Shown one piece after another: positions 47,893-55,618 of a DNA stretch of 64,000 nucleotides. Source of the DNA: Nitrospira sp. (GTDB lineage Bacteria > Nitrospirota > Nitrospiria > Nitrospirales > Nitrospiraceae); assembly GCA_018242665.1 (NCBI GenBank), contig JAFEBL010000011.1, positions 62,001 to 126,000 on the forward strand, in the 5' to 3' direction. How positions within the stretch are numbered: the stretch's first letter is position 1; the number at the start of each line of letters is the position of its first letter. Position numbers and translations under genes: made by a program. Below the pieces are notes generated by a model, which saw nothing but the letters and a program-made list of their open reading frames with translations, made no database searches and was not told where the DNA came from.

Positions 47893-47917
47893 GCCTGCCG
47901 CGAATCGTCGCGCAGGC
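47893..47917. terminator. Hairpin between convergent genes
   Basis: GCCTG-C-CGCGA pairs with TCGCG-CAGGC (one bulged C, loop ATCG) immediately after the GspE-like stop and at the end of the TPR lipoprotein gene. It could end both transcripts. No T-run. Confidence 0.4.
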
Positions 47918-48876
47918 TATCTCGCGGGCCCTGGCCCAGCCAGTTGCTTCAATCCTTTCTCCAATCGCGCGACGTCCGATTCCCGCCCCAGCCGTTTGGC
48001 GCAGGCCAGCGCTTCAGTCACGGCCGCTTCAGCTCCGGCCCGATCACCTTGCGCCAGATAACTGTGGGAAGCGCGCTCGAAGAACGCGAGCCCGCGATCG
48101 GGAAACCCCCGACGGTCGGCCATCCGTCCTAATCGCACCAGATCCGCGGCAATCCCCGCTCGATGCTCCGCGGCCTTGTCCAACTCCAACGCCCGTTCAA
48201 ATTCCTGCTCAGCCGCATCGTAGGCCTGACGCGCCTCCGCCACCATCCCCAAGTTCACGTGGTTGCTGGCTTCGGAGGCCAGATTGCCGGTTGCCTGATT
48301 CAAGACCACGGCTTGGCGGAACAACTGCGTCGCCTGCTCAAGATCACCGTTCGCCTGCCGCACCAAACCGAGATTGTTGCGAAGCGTCGCTTCCATCGAT
48401 TGATCCCCCTGCTGTTGAGCCAGGGGCAACGCCTCTTGGTAGAGCCGCTCGGAGTTCTCGTGATGCCCGGATTGCTGTTCGGCCGTCCCCAACGCCGTCA
48501 TGCTCTCAAGCAGGAGATCCGACGCGCCCAGATCCCGAGCCAGGGCCATCGCCCGCCCATGCGACGCCAGGGCCTGGGCCGAATCCCCACGGCTGAGCGC
48601 CACGCGCCCAAGATCATTGAGCGCGCCCGCGAGGCTCTTTCTGTCGTCAAGACTTTCCGCCAAGCGACGCGCGGCCTCATACGCCTCCGTCGCACGGACG
48701 CGATCTCCCCTTGTCAGCCAGTGATCACCTTGCTGCCGGAGAGCGTTCACCTGTGCCACCCAGGGACCGGGCTGTGATTCGGCAGGCACAGGTGGTGGGG
48801 AACTCGCGCATCCCACGAACGTACACAGCGCGACCACGCCCCCGCCTACCCAACACCATGTTCGCCTCCCCTTCAT
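47917..48876 (-). CDS. TPR-repeat lipoprotein
   Basis: 319 aa. Signal peptide with lipobox FVGCASS (C23). Then about seven TPR-type helical repeats (for example AYEAARRLAESLDDR, LGRVALSRGDSAQALASHGR, LRNNLGLVRQANGDLEQA, NLGMVAEARQAYDAAEQEF). Overlaps the MCE gene by ATGA, so it is probably an accessory protein of the lipid-transport operon, anchored in the envelope. Confidence 0.85.
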   Translation of the reverse strand: MKGRRTWCWVGGGVVALCTFVGCASSPPPVPAESQPGPWVAQVNALRQQGDHWLTRGDRVRATEAYEAARRLAESLDDRKSLAGALNDLGRVALSRGDSAQALASHGRAMALARDLGASDLLLESMTALGTAEQQSGHHENSERLYQEALPLAQQQGDQSMEATLRNNLGLVRQANGDLEQATQLFRQAVVLNQATGNLASEASNHVNLGMVAEARQAYDAAEQEFERALELDKAAEHRAGIAADLVRLGRMADRRGFPDRGLAFFERASHSYLAQGDRAGAEAAVTEALACAKRLGRESDVARLEKGLKQLAGPGPAR

Positions 48877-49862
48877 CGCCGCAATTGATCTCCCCTGAGG
48901 CTCTGGGTGCCAGGCTGGGATCTGACAGGCGAATCCTTCGGCGGCGGCCCGGCGTTCTGCGCGAACCGGTTGAAGGGAAACGTCTGTTTCGCGCCACGCA
49001 CCAGCAGTGAGACATCGGTCAAGGTGCCTTCCGCCGTCCGAATGACGGGAATGAATTCCTGACTCACTTCATCCACCGACTCCGACAGCCGCTTCACGCT
49101 GGCCAAGGTGGATTCGGCGCTGTCCAGGATGGCCGGCAGCCGCCCCGTTGCCCGCTGCACATCCGCGGTGACACGATCCACGACATTCAAGGTCCGCTTG
49201 ATGGAGCCGGTCATGGTCGGCAATACCGTCGCGGTTTGCTCCACCGAGGCCATCGTTCGCTGAACCGACGCCACCACCGACGGCAAGTCCTGCGTCGCCA
49301 CGGCAACTTGCTCCAAGGCCTTCCCACCGGCTTTGAGGCCGCCTTGCAAATCCTGGGTGATGGTCTCCACACGAAGGAGCGTTTGCTTCACCGCCATCAA
49401 CACCGGCTCGACCTCGTTCAGCAGGTCACCGATGTCCCTCGGTTCCACCGCACGAATCGTCGCACCATCGCCCAGTGCCGGACTGCCGGCCGTGCCCATT
49501 CCAATATCGACTTGCGTCTGCCCGACCACGACCCCGCTCTTGGTGATCCGCAATTCCGAATTGTCCTTCACCATATTTTGATAGCGGGTCAACAGTTGCA
49601 GCGTCAGATCAACGGTGCCGCGATCGTTCAAATCCACCTGCTTCACCCGCCCGATCGAAATGCCCGACACCACCACCGGGGCGCCAGGCTCCAGCCCATA
49701 CGATTTGCTGAGACTGGCCCTGAGCGCATATTTCGGTTCAAACAGATGTTCGGCCCGCGACATCCAAAACCCCGCCACGGCCAGAATCAGCAGGGGAATC
49801 ACCACAAAGGTCCCCACGATCTGAGCCAACCGCCCGCTCGACAGTTGATGTGAATAATGCAT
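48873..49862 (-). CDS. MCE/MlaD-family lipid-transport protein
   Basis: 329 aa. One membrane helix (~17-37), then a MCE domain (~43-125, KYALRASLSKSYGLEPGAPV and VSGISIGRVKQVDL). A long helical segment of about 180 residues follows (VEPVLMAVKQTLLRVETIT, LPSVVASVQRTMASVEQT) and a disordered tail. MCE proteins form a hexameric ring between inner-membrane MlaFE and partners. In operon with an Mla-type permease, ATPase and TPR lipoprotein. Confidence 0.92.
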   Translation of the reverse strand: MHYSHQLSSGRLAQIVGTFVVIPLLILAVAGFWMSRAEHLFEPKYALRASLSKSYGLEPGAPVVVSGISIGRVKQVDLNDRGTVDLTLQLLTRYQNMVKDNSELRITKSGVVVGQTQVDIGMGTAGSPALGDGATIRAVEPRDIGDLLNEVEPVLMAVKQTLLRVETITQDLQGGLKAGGKALEQVAVATQDLPSVVASVQRTMASVEQTATVLPTMTGSIKRTLNVVDRVTADVQRATGRLPAILDSAESTLASVKRLSESVDEVSQEFIPVIRTAEGTLTDVSLLVRGAKQTFPFNRFAQNAGPPPKDSPVRSQPGTQSLRGDQLRR

Positions 49863-49900: not shown

Positions 49901-50632
49901 CTATGTTACATATCGACTCAGGGCCGGTGGAATGAGACTGGCCACCGATTGAGGACTGGCATCAGCTTCCACGCGTCCATCCTGCAGCACGATCAGTCGA
50001 TCCACGTCGGCGATGAAGGGCGAATACGACCGCAACGCCGCCATCACCGTCAAGGGGTGCTGCTTCCGTCGTTCCTCGACATACTGTTTCAAGACGAGCA
50101 CCATATCCGCATCAAGTCCCGCCACGGGATCGTCCAACAGGAGCACGTCCGGCTCCAAGATCAACGCTCGAACGATAGCCCCCCGACGGATCTCCCCGTG
50201 ATTGAGTTCGGCAGGAAAACGGTCTCGCAACGGCGCCAAGGCCAATCGCGCCAACCCCTCCATCACCACGCGCTCCCGTTGACCATCCGGCATCGCCCCA
50301 CGATGGTACCGCAGTGGTAAGAGCACATTGTTGAAGAGGGTCATATTGCTCAGCAAGCCGGGTTGTTGCAGCACGGTGCCTACCCGGAGGCGCACCGGAT
50401 CGGCGCCGTCAGCCCGGACGCTGCGCCAGTCCTGCCCGAGCACCGTCACCGTGCCGGATTCCGGTGACACCAAGCCCGCCGCCAATTCGATGGCCAGGCT
50501 TTTCCCCGAACGGCTCGGCCCCACGAGCGCCACGAATTGACCTGTCTCGACCTGCAGGTCCAGTTGCAAGCAGGAGACGCCCCCGGCCAGCGGCATCCGA
50601 ACTTTGGCAAAACTGATTGCGGCATGACTCAT
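49901..50632 (-). CDS. Mla-type ABC transporter ATPase with degenerate catalytic motifs
   Basis: 243 aa. Fold and position match MlaF, but key residues differ: Walker A is GPSRSGKS (R41 for Gly), the signature is LNHGE (144-147 region) for LSGG, Walker B is LLLDDP with D168 where the catalytic Glu belongs, and R201 stands where the H-loop histidine belongs. Walker A lysine K44 is kept. It may bind ATP without normal turnover, or work with altered chemistry. Start ATG at 50632 overlaps the permease stop. Confidence 0.88.
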   Translation of the reverse strand: MSHAAISFAKVRMPLAGGVSCLQLDLQVETGQFVALVGPSRSGKSLAIELAAGLVSPESGTVTVLGQDWRSVRADGADPVRLRVGTVLQQPGLLSNMTLFNNVLLPLRYHRGAMPDGQRERVVMEGLARLALAPLRDRFPAELNHGEIRRGAIVRALILEPDVLLLDDPVAGLDADMVLVLKQYVEERRKQHPLTVMAALRSYSPFIADVDRLIVLQDGRVEADASPQSVASLIPPALSRYVT

Positions 50633-51414
50633 AAATAGAGCGGCACCGTGACGGCGACATCCACCAGCAAACACAGGACGAATGAATTGATCATCGCTCT
50701 CGTCGTTTGTTGCGGCACCTCCGTATAGGAGGACTGCACCGCCAGACCATGGTAACAACAGACCGCCGCGACAGCCGATCCGAAGCCGAACCCCTTGATC
50801 GCGGTCATCAGCACATCCGTCGTCGACAAGGCTCGGGTGACACTATCCACAAACGCTGAAAAGGGGATGGTCAATTGCGCATCGGCCACGAGATATCCAC
50901 CGAAGACCGCCACGACGTCAAAGTAAAACGTCAGGCACAACATGGACAGCACCATGCCGACCATGCGGGGCATGATGACGAACTGGCTGATGGGAATGCC
51001 CATGAGTCGAAGCGCCACCACTTCACGCGTCACGGACATATTGCCCAGCTCCGTGGCAATCGCTGTCCCTGATCGACCGACCACGATGAAGGCCGTGATC
51101 AGGGGACCGAGTTCTCGAATCACGGTCACCACAATGATGCTGCCCACCAGCCCGCCGGCCCCGAGCCTGGGAAGCTGGGTCCCGGCCTGCGTCACGATAA
51201 TAATGCCCAGCAGCAACGCAATGACGCTGGTGACGGGCAGCGCATCGACTCCCGTGAAGAGAATCTGGCGAATCACCACTCGGAGGGTTTCCCGCCGTCC
51301 TTGTCGCGCAGGGGACACCAGGTCCAGCACCGCTTGCGTGAAGAGCGTGGCCAGCGCAGCCAGATAGGAATAGCCGGCAATCGTCTTCCGTCCTACCCAC
51401 TCGATCATCAGCAA
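50629..51414 (-). CDS. MlaE-family lipid-transport permease
   Basis: 261 aa with five to six membrane helices. The MlaE block ALPVTSVIALLLGIIIVTQA, the conserved RELGPLITAFIVVGRSGTAIAT and ELGNMSVTREVVALRLMGI and the helix FYFDVVAVFGGYLVAD fit. It forms the channel for lipid movement with the downstream ATPase and MCE protein. First gene of this minus-strand operon. Confidence 0.93.
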   Translation of the reverse strand: MLMIEWVGRKTIAGYSYLAALATLFTQAVLDLVSPARQGRRETLRVVIRQILFTGVDALPVTSVIALLLGIIIVTQAGTQLPRLGAGGLVGSIIVVTVIRELGPLITAFIVVGRSGTAIATELGNMSVTREVVALRLMGIPISQFVIMPRMVGMVLSMLCLTFYFDVVAVFGGYLVADAQLTIPFSAFVDSVTRALSTTDVLMTAIKGFGFGSAVAAVCCYHGLAVQSSYTEVPQQTTRAMINSFVLCLLVDVAVTVPLYL

Positions 51415-51620: not shown

Positions 51621-51953
51621 TCACGACCGGGGGCGATGCTTGATCACGAACTGCTGGATGCGTTGAAGCTGCGGCGGGCGCATCACCACAAACTCGAGTC
51701 CGAACTCTCCGCCCCGCGCCCATCGAACTACCGCCTCTTCGACTCGCACCGGCCACTCGAGCCCATCTTCGAGAAACAGGGCGACACGCATGCGAAGGCC
51801 CGGTGGCACGGGATGGTTCGATCGTGCCATGCAGCCGGTGGAGGACACGTCCAGCATGTCCGCTTCCCCGTCGATCTCGTCTTCCCCGATAAATTCCAGG
51901 CGACAATCAGTGGCCACCCGGTTGGACTTGCGCAATGTGTTCGTGTGTTCCAC
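51621..51953 (-). CDS. PilZ-domain protein, 110 aa
   Basis: GTG start at 51953 preceded by GAGAGG. The c-di-GMP motifs RKSNR (RxxxR) and DVSSTG (D/NxSxxG) are both present, followed by the beta-barrel RMRVALFLEDGLEWP and VEEAVVRWARGGEFGLEFV. A stand-alone PilZ receptor. A longer in-frame start exists but adds an unconserved N-terminus. Confidence 0.85.
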   Translation of the reverse strand: MEHTNTLRKSNRVATDCRLEFIGEDEIDGEADMLDVSSTGCMARSNHPVPPGLRMRVALFLEDGLEWPVRVEEAVVRWARGGEFGLEFVVMRPPQLQRIQQFVIKHRPRS

Positions 51954-51991
51954 TTGACCCTCTCCCCACTCACTTCCGACCGTTGTGGCTC

Positions 51992-52369
51992 CTAGTCCCC
52001 AAGAGGGGCGGCGCCCATGAACTGACGCAAGCGAGCTTGCTCGACCGTCCCCATCGATACGAACTCCACGCCGAAACAAACTTCGCTGCCCCAACGCACC
52101 AAAGCCAGATCAACCGCGGTGGGAGCGGACTCCCCGGGAAGCAGAATGATGAGCGACATCGCATCTCCCACCCGCACGCCCGCGTCGCTGGCGATTTTGC
52201 AGCCACCGGGAGAAAGGTCGAGAATCACGCCTTCGCCCTCCACATCTCCGTGAAAACTCAACGTCGGGGCAAAGGGCGCGAAAGACAGCAGGCAACCCGG
52301 AGGCGCGAGATGCCGATGGTGTTGACGCAGATCATGGCGGAGAGGAAATCGCATATTGGATTGATCCAT
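51992..52369 (-). CDS. PilZ-domain protein, 125 aa
   Basis: RQHHR (RxxxR) at 15-19 and LDLSPGG (DxSxxG) at ~50-56, then SLIILLPGESAPTA and VDLALVRWGSEVCFGVEFVS. Both motifs intact, so c-di-GMP binding is expected. Sits 38 bp upstream (in transcription order) of the 110-aa PilZ gene and is probably a paralog. Confidence 0.87.
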   Translation of the reverse strand: MDQSNMRFPLRHDLRQHHRHLAPPGCLLSFAPFAPTLSFHGDVEGEGVILDLSPGGCKIASDAGVRVGDAMSLIILLPGESAPTAVDLALVRWGSEVCFGVEFVSMGTVEQARLRQFMGAAPLGD

Positions 52370-52512: not shown

Positions 52513-53451
52513 TTACCGCCGATAGAGCGACGGCTCACCGGGAGGGCGGCTTTTGAAGCGGCGGTGCTGCCAGAAATATTGCTCCGGCACGCGGCGAACG
52601 GCCGCTTCAATCAAGCGATTGACGCGTGTGGCATCCTCAATCATTTCTCCGGACGGAAATTGATCGAGGGCCTGCCCCACTTCGATGTCATACCCCGATC
52701 CGTCTGCTCGTCGATAATAGAAGCAGGGCACCACCGCCGCGCCGCTGACCTTGGCTAATCTCGACGTGGCCGTCAAGGATGCAGCCGGCACCCCGAAGAA
52801 CGGTGCGAAGACGCTACGCTTGGTGCCGGCATCGATATCAGGCGCATACCAGACCACCTGGTTTCTGGCCAACGCGCGCAGGATGCCCCGCATGTCACGG
52901 TGTTGAATCAAATCGGAGTAGTATCGGCTCCGGCAGCGATTCGCGACCATATCCGCCACAAGATCGTTCTGCGGCCGGTAGACAATGGCGACTGGTTGTT
53001 CCAAGGCCATAAACCGTCCCGCCAGTTCCGCCGAGTGAAGATGCGCCCCGCAAAGCAATACCCCACGGCCGGCACGGAGCGCCTCCCGGAGATGTTCCAG
53101 CCCCTTGATCGTGCATTCGCAGTGCTCCCGAGGATCCTTTGCCCACCAGGCCATGGCGATTTCCAACACTCCCATCCCCATGGACTCGAAACAGTGCAAT
53201 GCCACCGCGTTGCGTTCTTCCGGCGTCTGTTCAGGAAAACAGAGTTGCAGATTGACGCGGACGATTTCCCGCCGCTTAGTCAGCAGGCTGTGCAGGAGTC
53301 GACCGCATCGCCGTCCAAACGCGAGTTGCGACCGATAGGAGAGCCATGAGAGCAGACGAAACAGGGCGATACCAACCCAGGTGGGCCAATACATGAGATG
53401 GTACGGGCTGTGAGGCCGCCGCTTCGTATGTGGGGTCTGTGTCCTCGACAT
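52513..53451 (-). CDS. LpxL/HtrB-family lysophospholipid or lipid A acyltransferase
   Basis: 312 aa. The HX4E catalytic motif is H137 to E142 (GAHLHSAELAG), with VAIVYRPQNDLVADMV and QVVWYAPDIDAGTKRSVFA. These are LpxL/LpxM-type acyltransferases that add an acyl chain to lipid A precursors at the inner membrane. A hydrophobic N-terminal helix (~24-40) acts as an anchor. Flanked by PilZ genes on both sides. Confidence 0.9.
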   Translation of the reverse strand: MSRTQTPHTKRRPHSPYHLMYWPTWVGIALFRLLSWLSYRSQLAFGRRCGRLLHSLLTKRREIVRVNLQLCFPEQTPEERNAVALHCFESMGMGVLEIAMAWWAKDPREHCECTIKGLEHLREALRAGRGVLLCGAHLHSAELAGRFMALEQPVAIVYRPQNDLVADMVANRCRSRYYSDLIQHRDMRGILRALARNQVVWYAPDIDAGTKRSVFAPFFGVPAASLTATSRLAKVSGAAVVPCFYYRRADGSGYDIEVGQALDQFPSGEMIEDATRVNRLIEAAVRRVPEQYFWQHRRFKSRPPGEPSLYRR

Positions 53452-53622: not shown

Positions 53623-54003
53623 CTAGGTGGCGGGTTTCGTCGCCAGCGCGATGAACTTCCGCAACCGCATTTCGGCTACCGACGAAAGGTTGACGAACTC
53701 CAAGCCGTACACTTGCTCCCGCTCCCAGCGTACCGTGGCTTCTTCCACCGTCATCGGCGAGACCTGATTCGGCAACGACAGACTCACGGACAGCCTGTCG
53801 CCGCGCTGCATCCCGGTTTCGCTCATGACCTTGGCGCCCCGCATCGACACGTCAAACACGACCCCGATGCCGTCGCCGCCACGGCCCAGCCATTTGGCCA
53901 ACCCCAATCGTGACATCGAGCAGACGAATGGCGCCGACACCCGTAACCGGGGATGTTGACGCAGGTCGACGGAAAACTGTTCCTGTCCCGTAGTGCCACT
54001 CAT
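53623..54003 (-). CDS. PilZ-domain protein, 126 aa
   Basis: RQHPR (RxxxR) and DVSMRG (DxSxxG) both intact, followed by RLSVSLSLPNQ and VEEATVRWEREQVYGLEFV. Third PilZ gene in 2.4 kb. The C-terminus (AEMRLRKFIAL) resembles the second PilZ protein, consistent with duplication. Confidence 0.87.
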   Translation of the reverse strand: MSGTTGQEQFSVDLRQHPRLRVSAPFVCSMSRLGLAKWLGRGGDGIGVVFDVSMRGAKVMSETGMQRGDRLSVSLSLPNQVSPMTVEEATVRWEREQVYGLEFVNLSSVAEMRLRKFIALATKPAT

Positions 54004-54163: not shown

Positions 54164-54523
54164 TTAGGGACGGCGCGGCCCCCGTTGCTGCATCGTTTGC
54201 GCGCACGTGGATGAAAGATCCTGCGCATGCTCCTTCAAACACTGGACAATGCGCCCCTCTCCGGGTTTGACGCCCGCGCAGAGCCGTTTGACATCCTCGG
54301 CACAGGCCTTCTTCGCCCCATGACCTCCTCGCCCTCGCTCTTCCGGCCCCGCCCCGCCCGCGCCGGATGATGGCGGAGCGGATGCAGCCGGCGCATCCTG
54401 TGCAGGTGGAGTGGAGGAGTCCGCCGACCAGGCAAGGCCAGCTCCAAGCCAAAGTCCAACCATGAGTCCTCCCGCAAGCACCAGCAACCTGGCTGTTCCC
54501 CGGATTTCACGATCCATACCCAT
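54164..54523 (-). CDS. Secreted cysteine-rich (GLG1-type) small protein
   Basis: 119 aa. The ATG at 54523 has AAAGGAG 5 nt upstream. Signal peptide (LLVLAGGLMVGLWLGAG, cleavage near WSADS), Pro/Ala/Gly linker, then a cysteine-rich repeat: KACAEDVKRLCAGVKPGEG with IVQCLKEHAQ and SSTCAQ. Its spacing closely matches the last repeat of the 27594-28208 protein (CEADRRQYC...CLESHAQ...C). Exported and probably disulfide-bonded. Confidence 0.75.
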   Translation of the reverse strand: MGMDREIRGTARLLVLAGGLMVGLWLGAGLAWSADSSTPPAQDAPAASAPPSSGAGGAGPEERGRGGHGAKKACAEDVKRLCAGVKPGEGRIVQCLKEHAQDLSSTCAQTMQQRGPRRP

Positions 54524-54748
54524 ATGCACTCCTTTCGATTGGTGATGCCCGCTCCTGCCAGAGCCGTCTGGCGGGATGGGCAGCTGATAGAAGACACACT
54601 CTCGCTAGGCTATTCAACGGCCTTTCTTGCGGGCGGTTGACGAGCACGATGACGGCCGGCCGGCAATGTCCCTGGTACGCGCCTGACGCGCCTCGCGTAT
54701 CAGAAGCAGGCTCTTGCGAATTGCCTGCTGCTTATCTATTGTAGCGGC

Positions 54749-55618
54749 ATGCAACAGGCACCCCCGAACCCAGTTCCGGCGCACATTGTCCACCGTGTGC
54801 ATCATAAATTCTGGACCTACCTACTCTTCTGGTCGGTGGTCGCCGGCTCTATGATTGCGGTTCCGGGCTATGGGTTACTGTACGGCTACTCGTGGTTGGA
54901 TTGGACGATGTTCGCCGTGCTCTATGTAGTCACGGGACTGGGCATTACGGTCGGGTACCACCGGCTCCTGACGCATCGCAGTTTCGAATGCCCAGACTGG
55001 GTCAAGGCCTGCCTCCTGATCGCAGGCGGGTGGGCCCTGCAGAATTCCGGCGCGAAGTGGACCGCCGATCACCTGCGCCATCATGCACATTGCGACGACC
55101 CGGCCGATCCCTATAACGCCAAGCGCGGCTTCTGGTATAGCCATTGCGGGTGGCTTCTGGATCCTGTCCCCTGCCATGACGACCGATTCGGCTCACGCGT
55201 GATGCAGGACCCGGTCGCCATGTGGCAACACCGGAACTATGCGGCGATCGTGCTCATCGGCCTCGCATTGCCCTTTGTCATAGGCTTCCTCCACAACGGC
55301 TGGCAAGGAGGCGTCGGCGCCTTCATGCTCGCGGGAGTGGGACGCACGTTTGCCGTGCTCAATTCCACCTTCTGCATCAATTCTGTCTGCCACATCTGGG
55401 GCGACCAACCCTATGGGACAGCCGATTCGAGCCGGAACTCCTGGTTTGTCTCTCTGCTCACCTTCGGCGAGGGGTATCATAACTACCACCACACATACCC
55501 AAGCGACTACCGCAATGGTCCCTTGTGGTACAACTTCGATCCCTCAAAGTGGCTCATCTATACCTTGTCGAAGCTGGGGCTGGCGTCATCACTGCGTACA
55601 GCCTCCTCGGGCAGCTAA
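54749..55618 (+). CDS. Membrane fatty-acid (acyl-CoA) desaturase
   Basis: 289 aa with membrane helices at about 25-45, 55-70, 82-97 and 167-185. The three His boxes are intact: HRLLTH (71-76), HLRHHAH and YHNYHH near 240, typical of delta-9 type desaturases that bind two irons and put a double bond in an acyl chain. No good ribosome binding site. A promoter-like TTGCGA-N17-TATTGT ends only 6 bp before the ATG (54749), so the message may be leaderless. Confidence 0.93.
   Translation: MQQAPPNPVPAHIVHRVHHKFWTYLLFWSVVAGSMIAVPGYGLLYGYSWLDWTMFAVLYVVTGLGITVGYHRLLTHRSFECPDWVKACLLIAGGWALQNSGAKWTADHLRHHAHCDDPADPYNAKRGFWYSHCGWLLDPVPCHDDRFGSRVMQDPVAMWQHRNYAAIVLIGLALPFVIGFLHNGWQGGVGAFMLAGVGRTFAVLNSTFCINSVCHIWGDQPYGTADSSRNSWFVSLLTFGEGYHNYHHTYPSDYRNGPLWYNFDPSKWLIYTLSKLGLASSLRTASSGS

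Follow-up and report, generated by a model that had tools for sequence, protein, structure and literature searches.

A compact operon in the window, by which we mean the whole 64,000-nucleotide stretch of Nitrospira sp. DNA analysed here, on balance seems to encode a dedicated Mla/MCE-type inner-membrane lipid transporter, one that is not driven by normal hydrolysis and whose ATPase subunit has turned into a pseudo-ATPase. Judging from the sequences, we consider that lipids are probably moved or gated here without the usual hydrolysis of ATP. The genes are all encoded on the reverse strand in the order permease, ATPase, MCE, TPR putative lipoprotein. The first codes for an MlaE-type permease (50629..51414; Pfam MlaE, 211.5 bits against a cut-off of 22.5), and its 3’ end overlaps by 4 nt the start of the gene for a degenerate MlaF-like ATPase of 243 aa (49901..50632; Pfam ABC_tran, 82.4 bits against a cut-off of 25), the putative pseudo-ATPase. 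These are followed by a 329 aa MCE (MlaD-domain) protein (48873..49862; Pfam MlaD, 52 bits) and, again with a 4-nt overlap, by a TPR-repeat putative lipoprotein (47917..48876; Pfam TPR), in which alignment reveals an invariant Cys23 after the signal peptide. The ATPase gene therefore adjoins both an MlaE permease gene and an MCE gene, the context of an MCE system. The MCE protein has an N-terminal helix, a single MCE domain and a long C-terminus that is predicted with low confidence to be helical and lacks confident structure in the AlphaFold model. The position of the TPR gene is conserved in the orthologous operons, and no second ATPase gene was found in the operon. Promoter and terminator scans gave results no better than chance.

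A competent ABC ATPase is expected to have a Walker A motif GxxGxGK[ST], an LSGG signature, a Walker B DE and an H-loop His, and the window protein departs from all four. The four substitutions that the initial annotation described are each present at the residues claimed when the gene is translated. Walker A (residues 38-45; 50498..50521, reverse strand, as are the other motifs) reads GPSRSGKS, with Arg41 in place of the second Gly; the signature (residues 143-147; 50192..50206) is LNHGE for LSGG, the MCE type being LSGGM, which is typical of Mla- and TGD-type NBDs (PMC7367683); the end of Walker B (D167-D168-P169; 50126..50134) has Asp168 for the catalytic Glu; and the H-loop has Arg201 for His (50030..50032). 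Walker A K44 and S45, Walker B D167 and Q-loop Q89 are kept, and the Q-loop/coupling segment VLQQPGLLSNMTLFNNVLLPLRYH (residues 87-110; 50303..50374) is conserved. An AlphaFold model of the protein (pLDDT 92.5) has the ABC fold, with E. coli MlaF (6xgz) as the best PDB match (TM 0.88). The C-terminus ends 10-19 residues short of those of canonical relatives, such that most of the MlaF extension is absent; this extension (the handshake) is required for assembly of MlaFEDB in E. coli (PMC7367683), and it is also absent in most of the orthologs, a few having short unrelated tails. Loss of the A-loop aromatic residue was considered as a further defect but not retained, Leu being found at this position in a canonical paralog too.

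Orthologs of the ATPase are present in 33 Nitrospirales genomes belonging to three families, including 21 of the 22 genomes sampled in the genus. A first scan of species-level genomes using the window protein alone as the query, which reaches close relatives only but extends beyond the phylum, identified 13 close orthologs, all with the four departures and all from records labelled Nitrospira apart from one contig labelled Nitrosospira; the count rose to 33 when profiles were searched against 295 and 395 genomes of the phylum. Orthologs with canonical motifs would have pointed to decay or sequence error, as the initial annotation noted, and every ortholog found is degenerate: the canonical motif set is present in 0/33, with all four motifs altered in 29, three in three and two in one, the least altered being that of G238. 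The P-loop Arg replaces the second Gly in 30/33, none has LSGG (LNQGE is the commonest signature), and the Walker B Glu position is occupied by Asp in 29, Glu in three and Ser in one (G143). The H-loop His is absent from 31/33 and kept in two, with Arg at the position of residue 201 in 27/33. Other members depart in their own ways. Core nucleotide-binding residues are lost in two genera: G336 has Arg for the Walker A Lys (GPSRSGRG) together with LLLEDP, and G306 has His for the Walker B Asp (LLLHDP). In family f40 (G354 and G350) the P-loop is GP[RS]GARKS, which retains the second Gly but has Arg in place of the third. The position of Q89 is also variable, with Glu in two Nitrospira orthologs (L007 and L009; VLEQ), Ala in the f3 members and His in G306. 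The recurrence of such departures in 33 species-level genomes indicates that they are not due to chance.

Among the closest known systems is E. coli MlaFEDB, where the genes for the permease, ATPase and MCE protein are likewise together, the permease is of the MlaE family and the ATPase, MlaF, is the nearest fold. The Nitrospira operon differs in the four altered ATP motifs, the loss of most of the C-terminal extension, the presence of a TPR lipoprotein and a diverged coupling helix in the permease, and no MlaB or MlaC gene was found in it. In E. coli, function is not supported by MlaF with K47A (Walker A) or E170Q (Walker B) (PMC7367683); because these single mutants fail, and because four altered motifs are fixed across the order, an ordinary pump motor is unlikely. 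If the ATPase forms a homodimer as in MlaFEDB, which we assume from the 2:2:6:2 stoichiometry of that complex (PMC10212509), then both ATP sites would be degenerate. The Nitrospira subunit may still bind nucleotide through K44, S45, D167 and usually Q89, with hydrolysis too slow to drive lipid movement; certain other genera lack even nucleotide-binding residues. It could act as a structural clamp or as a nucleotide-sensing gate that keeps the permease able to conduct lipids, in which case passage between the membrane and the MCE channel would follow the lipids' own gradient, with no ATP-powered pumping. The clamp or gate with passive lipid flow is the weakest step, and taken by itself we offer it tentatively. 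In vitro, lipid is reported to pass from MlaD to MlaC without ATP, and subsequent work finds that ATP hydrolysis prevents such transfer (PMC10212509); this ATP-independent transfer makes a passive or gated lipid conduit conceivable. It is possible, though we would not claim it with conviction, that the operon encodes an MCE transporter in which both ATP sites are naturally inactive, forming a passive or nucleotide-gated lipid conduit between the membranes that has been fixed for the age of the Nitrospirales.

Among 16 matched Nitrospira genomes, the median dN/dS (Nei-Gojobori, using pairs with dS < 1) is 0.190 for the degenerate ATPase, 0.063 for its own permease and 0.077 for its own MCE protein, as compared to 0.060 and 0.023 for the canonical ATPase and permease of the class on contig C13; mean pairwise identities are 0.70, 0.88 and 0.85, and 0.92 and 0.96, respectively. 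By these measures the degenerate ATPase is under purifying selection, with a clear but relaxed constraint. Invariant sites are concentrated in its Q-loop/coupling segment (19/24, versus 38/176 outside the motifs; Fisher p 5e-8), whereas canonical MlaF shows no such concentration (20/24 versus 133/186; p 0.33), and from this distribution constraint on the degenerate ATPase is focused where the permease should be met. Relaxation is strongest in the signature and the H-loop, and the P-loop is unrelaxed, with 6/8 sites invariant within the genus in both the degenerate ATPase and canonical MlaF. The equal conservation of the P-loop in the two proteins, together with the retention of K44, S45, D167 and Q89, suggests that nucleotide still matters. 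The most economical reading is that the pseudo-ATPase is retained because it contacts the permease, with nucleotide sensing as a possible further reason in Nitrospira.

The initial annotation had proposed a slow, regulatory or non-hydrolysing ATPase, and the uniformly degenerate orthologs are in keeping with that range of predicted activities. At one end of it lies a genuine but slow ATPase, in which Asp168 acts as a weak base and Arg41 and Arg201 as partial substitutes, and the complex is a slow pump or a timer. The retained nucleotide-binding residues in Nitrospira fit with this, the prevalence of Arg41 (30/33) and Arg201 (27/33) looks selected rather than drifting, and ABC exporter sites with Asp for Glu are capable of slow hydrolysis (PMC7756269). 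The ABC transporters with one degenerate site, Pdr5, TM287/288 and TAP, share with the Nitrospira protein the Walker B Glu-to-Asp change and the loss of the H-loop His, and Pdr5 has an LN-type signature as well (LNVEQ) (PMC7756269). However, their permease fold differs from the MlaE type, and the reviewed Asp sites are too slow to sustain transport and have a canonical partner site (PMC7756269), whereas a single gene would supply both sites in the Nitrospira operon and both would be degenerate in a homodimer. The Walker A Lys or the Walker B Asp is also lost in related genera. We regard a slow ATPase as unlikely, and favour a subunit in which ordinary hydrolysis has been given up.

A second alternative is a mixed dimer of the degenerate subunit and a canonical MlaF from another locus, with one site degenerate and the other hybrid, as in heterodimeric ABC exporters. 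The genome (57 contigs, 99.9% complete) contains two further MlaE permeases, on contigs C13 and C17, and the ATPase encoded after each of them retains Walker A, LSGGM, DEP and the H-loop His; the search for another MlaF that was called for at the outset thus yields two, each in its own Mla operon. FtsE, encoded beside FtsX on contig C24, is the best non-Mla paralog and was rejected as a missing partner. The two canonical operons are paralogous to the one described here and alike in gene types, but their ATPases keep all of the motifs, and evolution is slower in the C13 class. Canonical-class MlaE permeases are also present in the other genomes tested that have the degenerate operon, and reliance on a different MlaF, as the initial annotation suggested, is possible in principle. 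It is not favoured, because the canonical MlaFs lie in permease-MCE operons of their own, the degenerate subunit is present in every intact permease-MCE operon of its class examined, and the coupling helix has diverged. In E. coli this helix connects MlaE with MlaF (PMC7790496), and in the window permease it is GNMSVTREVVALRLMGI, as compared to the canonical pattern G.M[RK][IV]TE[QE][IL]DAL; the window permease reads TREVVAL here, other members of the degenerate class have NREVTAL, GQEVTAL or GQEIDGL, whereas the canonical classes in the same genomes have TEQIDAL or TEELDAL. The adjacent permease had been described as looking intact, and as judged by Pfam it does read as an intact MlaE protein, but its coupling helix is off the canonical pattern. 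Loss of the Asp in this helix was rejected as a universal marker, as the E. coli permease has Ser there. Change on both the ATPase and the permease side of the interface within one lineage points to a dedicated pair. A mixed dimer also sits poorly with the roughly three-fold faster evolution of the degenerate ATPase relative to canonical MlaF (dN/dS), and with the failure to find a canonical-class permease in G350 (88% complete); we consider it improbable. At the operon itself no canonical partner NBD is encoded, and any such partner would have to come from elsewhere in the genome.

Gene decay, in which the operon is being lost and the motif changes are neutral, is disfavoured and is perhaps a shade less probable than the mixed dimer. 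It draws on the raised dN/dS of the ATPase and on evident losses. In the Nitrospira genome G018 the operon is reduced to two fragments (L142:6103-6736) lying between intact flanking genes, a PilZ gene and a type II secretion ATPase gene; a 91-codon piece of the permease and a 53-codon piece of the TPR gene are all that is left, with the ATPase and MCE genes gone, and the system has therefore been lost as a unit. In G354 (family f40) the MCE and TPR genes were not found beside the copy, where only the permease-ATPase pair is seen, and the system in this family looks further reduced; the loss in G018 and the seeming reduction in f40 argue that this system is not indispensable. Elsewhere, the full gene order is kept in those Nitrospiraceae-type (f1) and f3 loci that are long enough to show it. 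Against decay, dN/dS is still about 0.19, there are no internal stop codons among the ATPase matches listed, the same P-loop Arg recurs in 30/33, the ATPase is never missing from an intact operon examined, and motif loss spans three families, which indicates that it is old. In permease and ATPase trees alike, 23 degenerate loci fall on one side of a branch with 100/100 support and diverge in the same order, G284 first, then G238 and then the rest, although long terminal branches leave the exact places of G284 and G238 uncertain. Sequencing or assembly error can be set aside as having next to no likelihood, since the same residues are present in independent assemblies, including single-contig genomes.

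A pseudo-ATPase that serves an MlaE permease may also be compared with the minimal MlaEFD system of Veillonella parvula (PMC10665443). Both have a permease, an ATPase and a long MCE protein with no MlaA or MlaC alongside, but V. parvula MlaF is closely similar to those of model diderms, unlike the degenerate Nitrospira ATPase, and the MlaD C-terminus is a beta-barrel (PMC10665443) where that of the Nitrospira MCE protein is predicted, with low confidence, to be helical. We found no description of a Nitrospira or a degenerate MlaF in the open-access papers searched, an absence that is not proof of novelty. The ATP requirement of Mla/MCE systems and the direction of lipid movement are still argued, and an old, conserved system that has lost its hydrolysis motifs and resides beside canonical paralogs in the same cell offers a direct comparison, one that would show what role the ATPase subunit has for an MlaE permease when it is unable to pump. 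Intermediates within the order, some of which retain the H-loop His or the catalytic Glu, also illustrate stages in the loss.

Family f40 presents an additional arrangement, in which two adjacent but different MlaE permeases precede the MCE gene (L143, G354:C97:10230-12955; G310:C12:79945-82667), and in G354 there is an ATPase match between the two. The pairing suggests a heterodimeric permease. In the window, the region upstream of the operon codes for three PilZ-domain proteins, two of them in overlapping ORFs (51621-52369 and 53623-54003), with a lipid A-type acyltransferase (52513-53451) between the PilZ genes in an order that is conserved across the genus. A c-di-GMP link to envelope lipids is possible. 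A small Cys-rich-repeat protein (54164-54529) and a fatty acid desaturase (54749-55618) are also encoded nearby.
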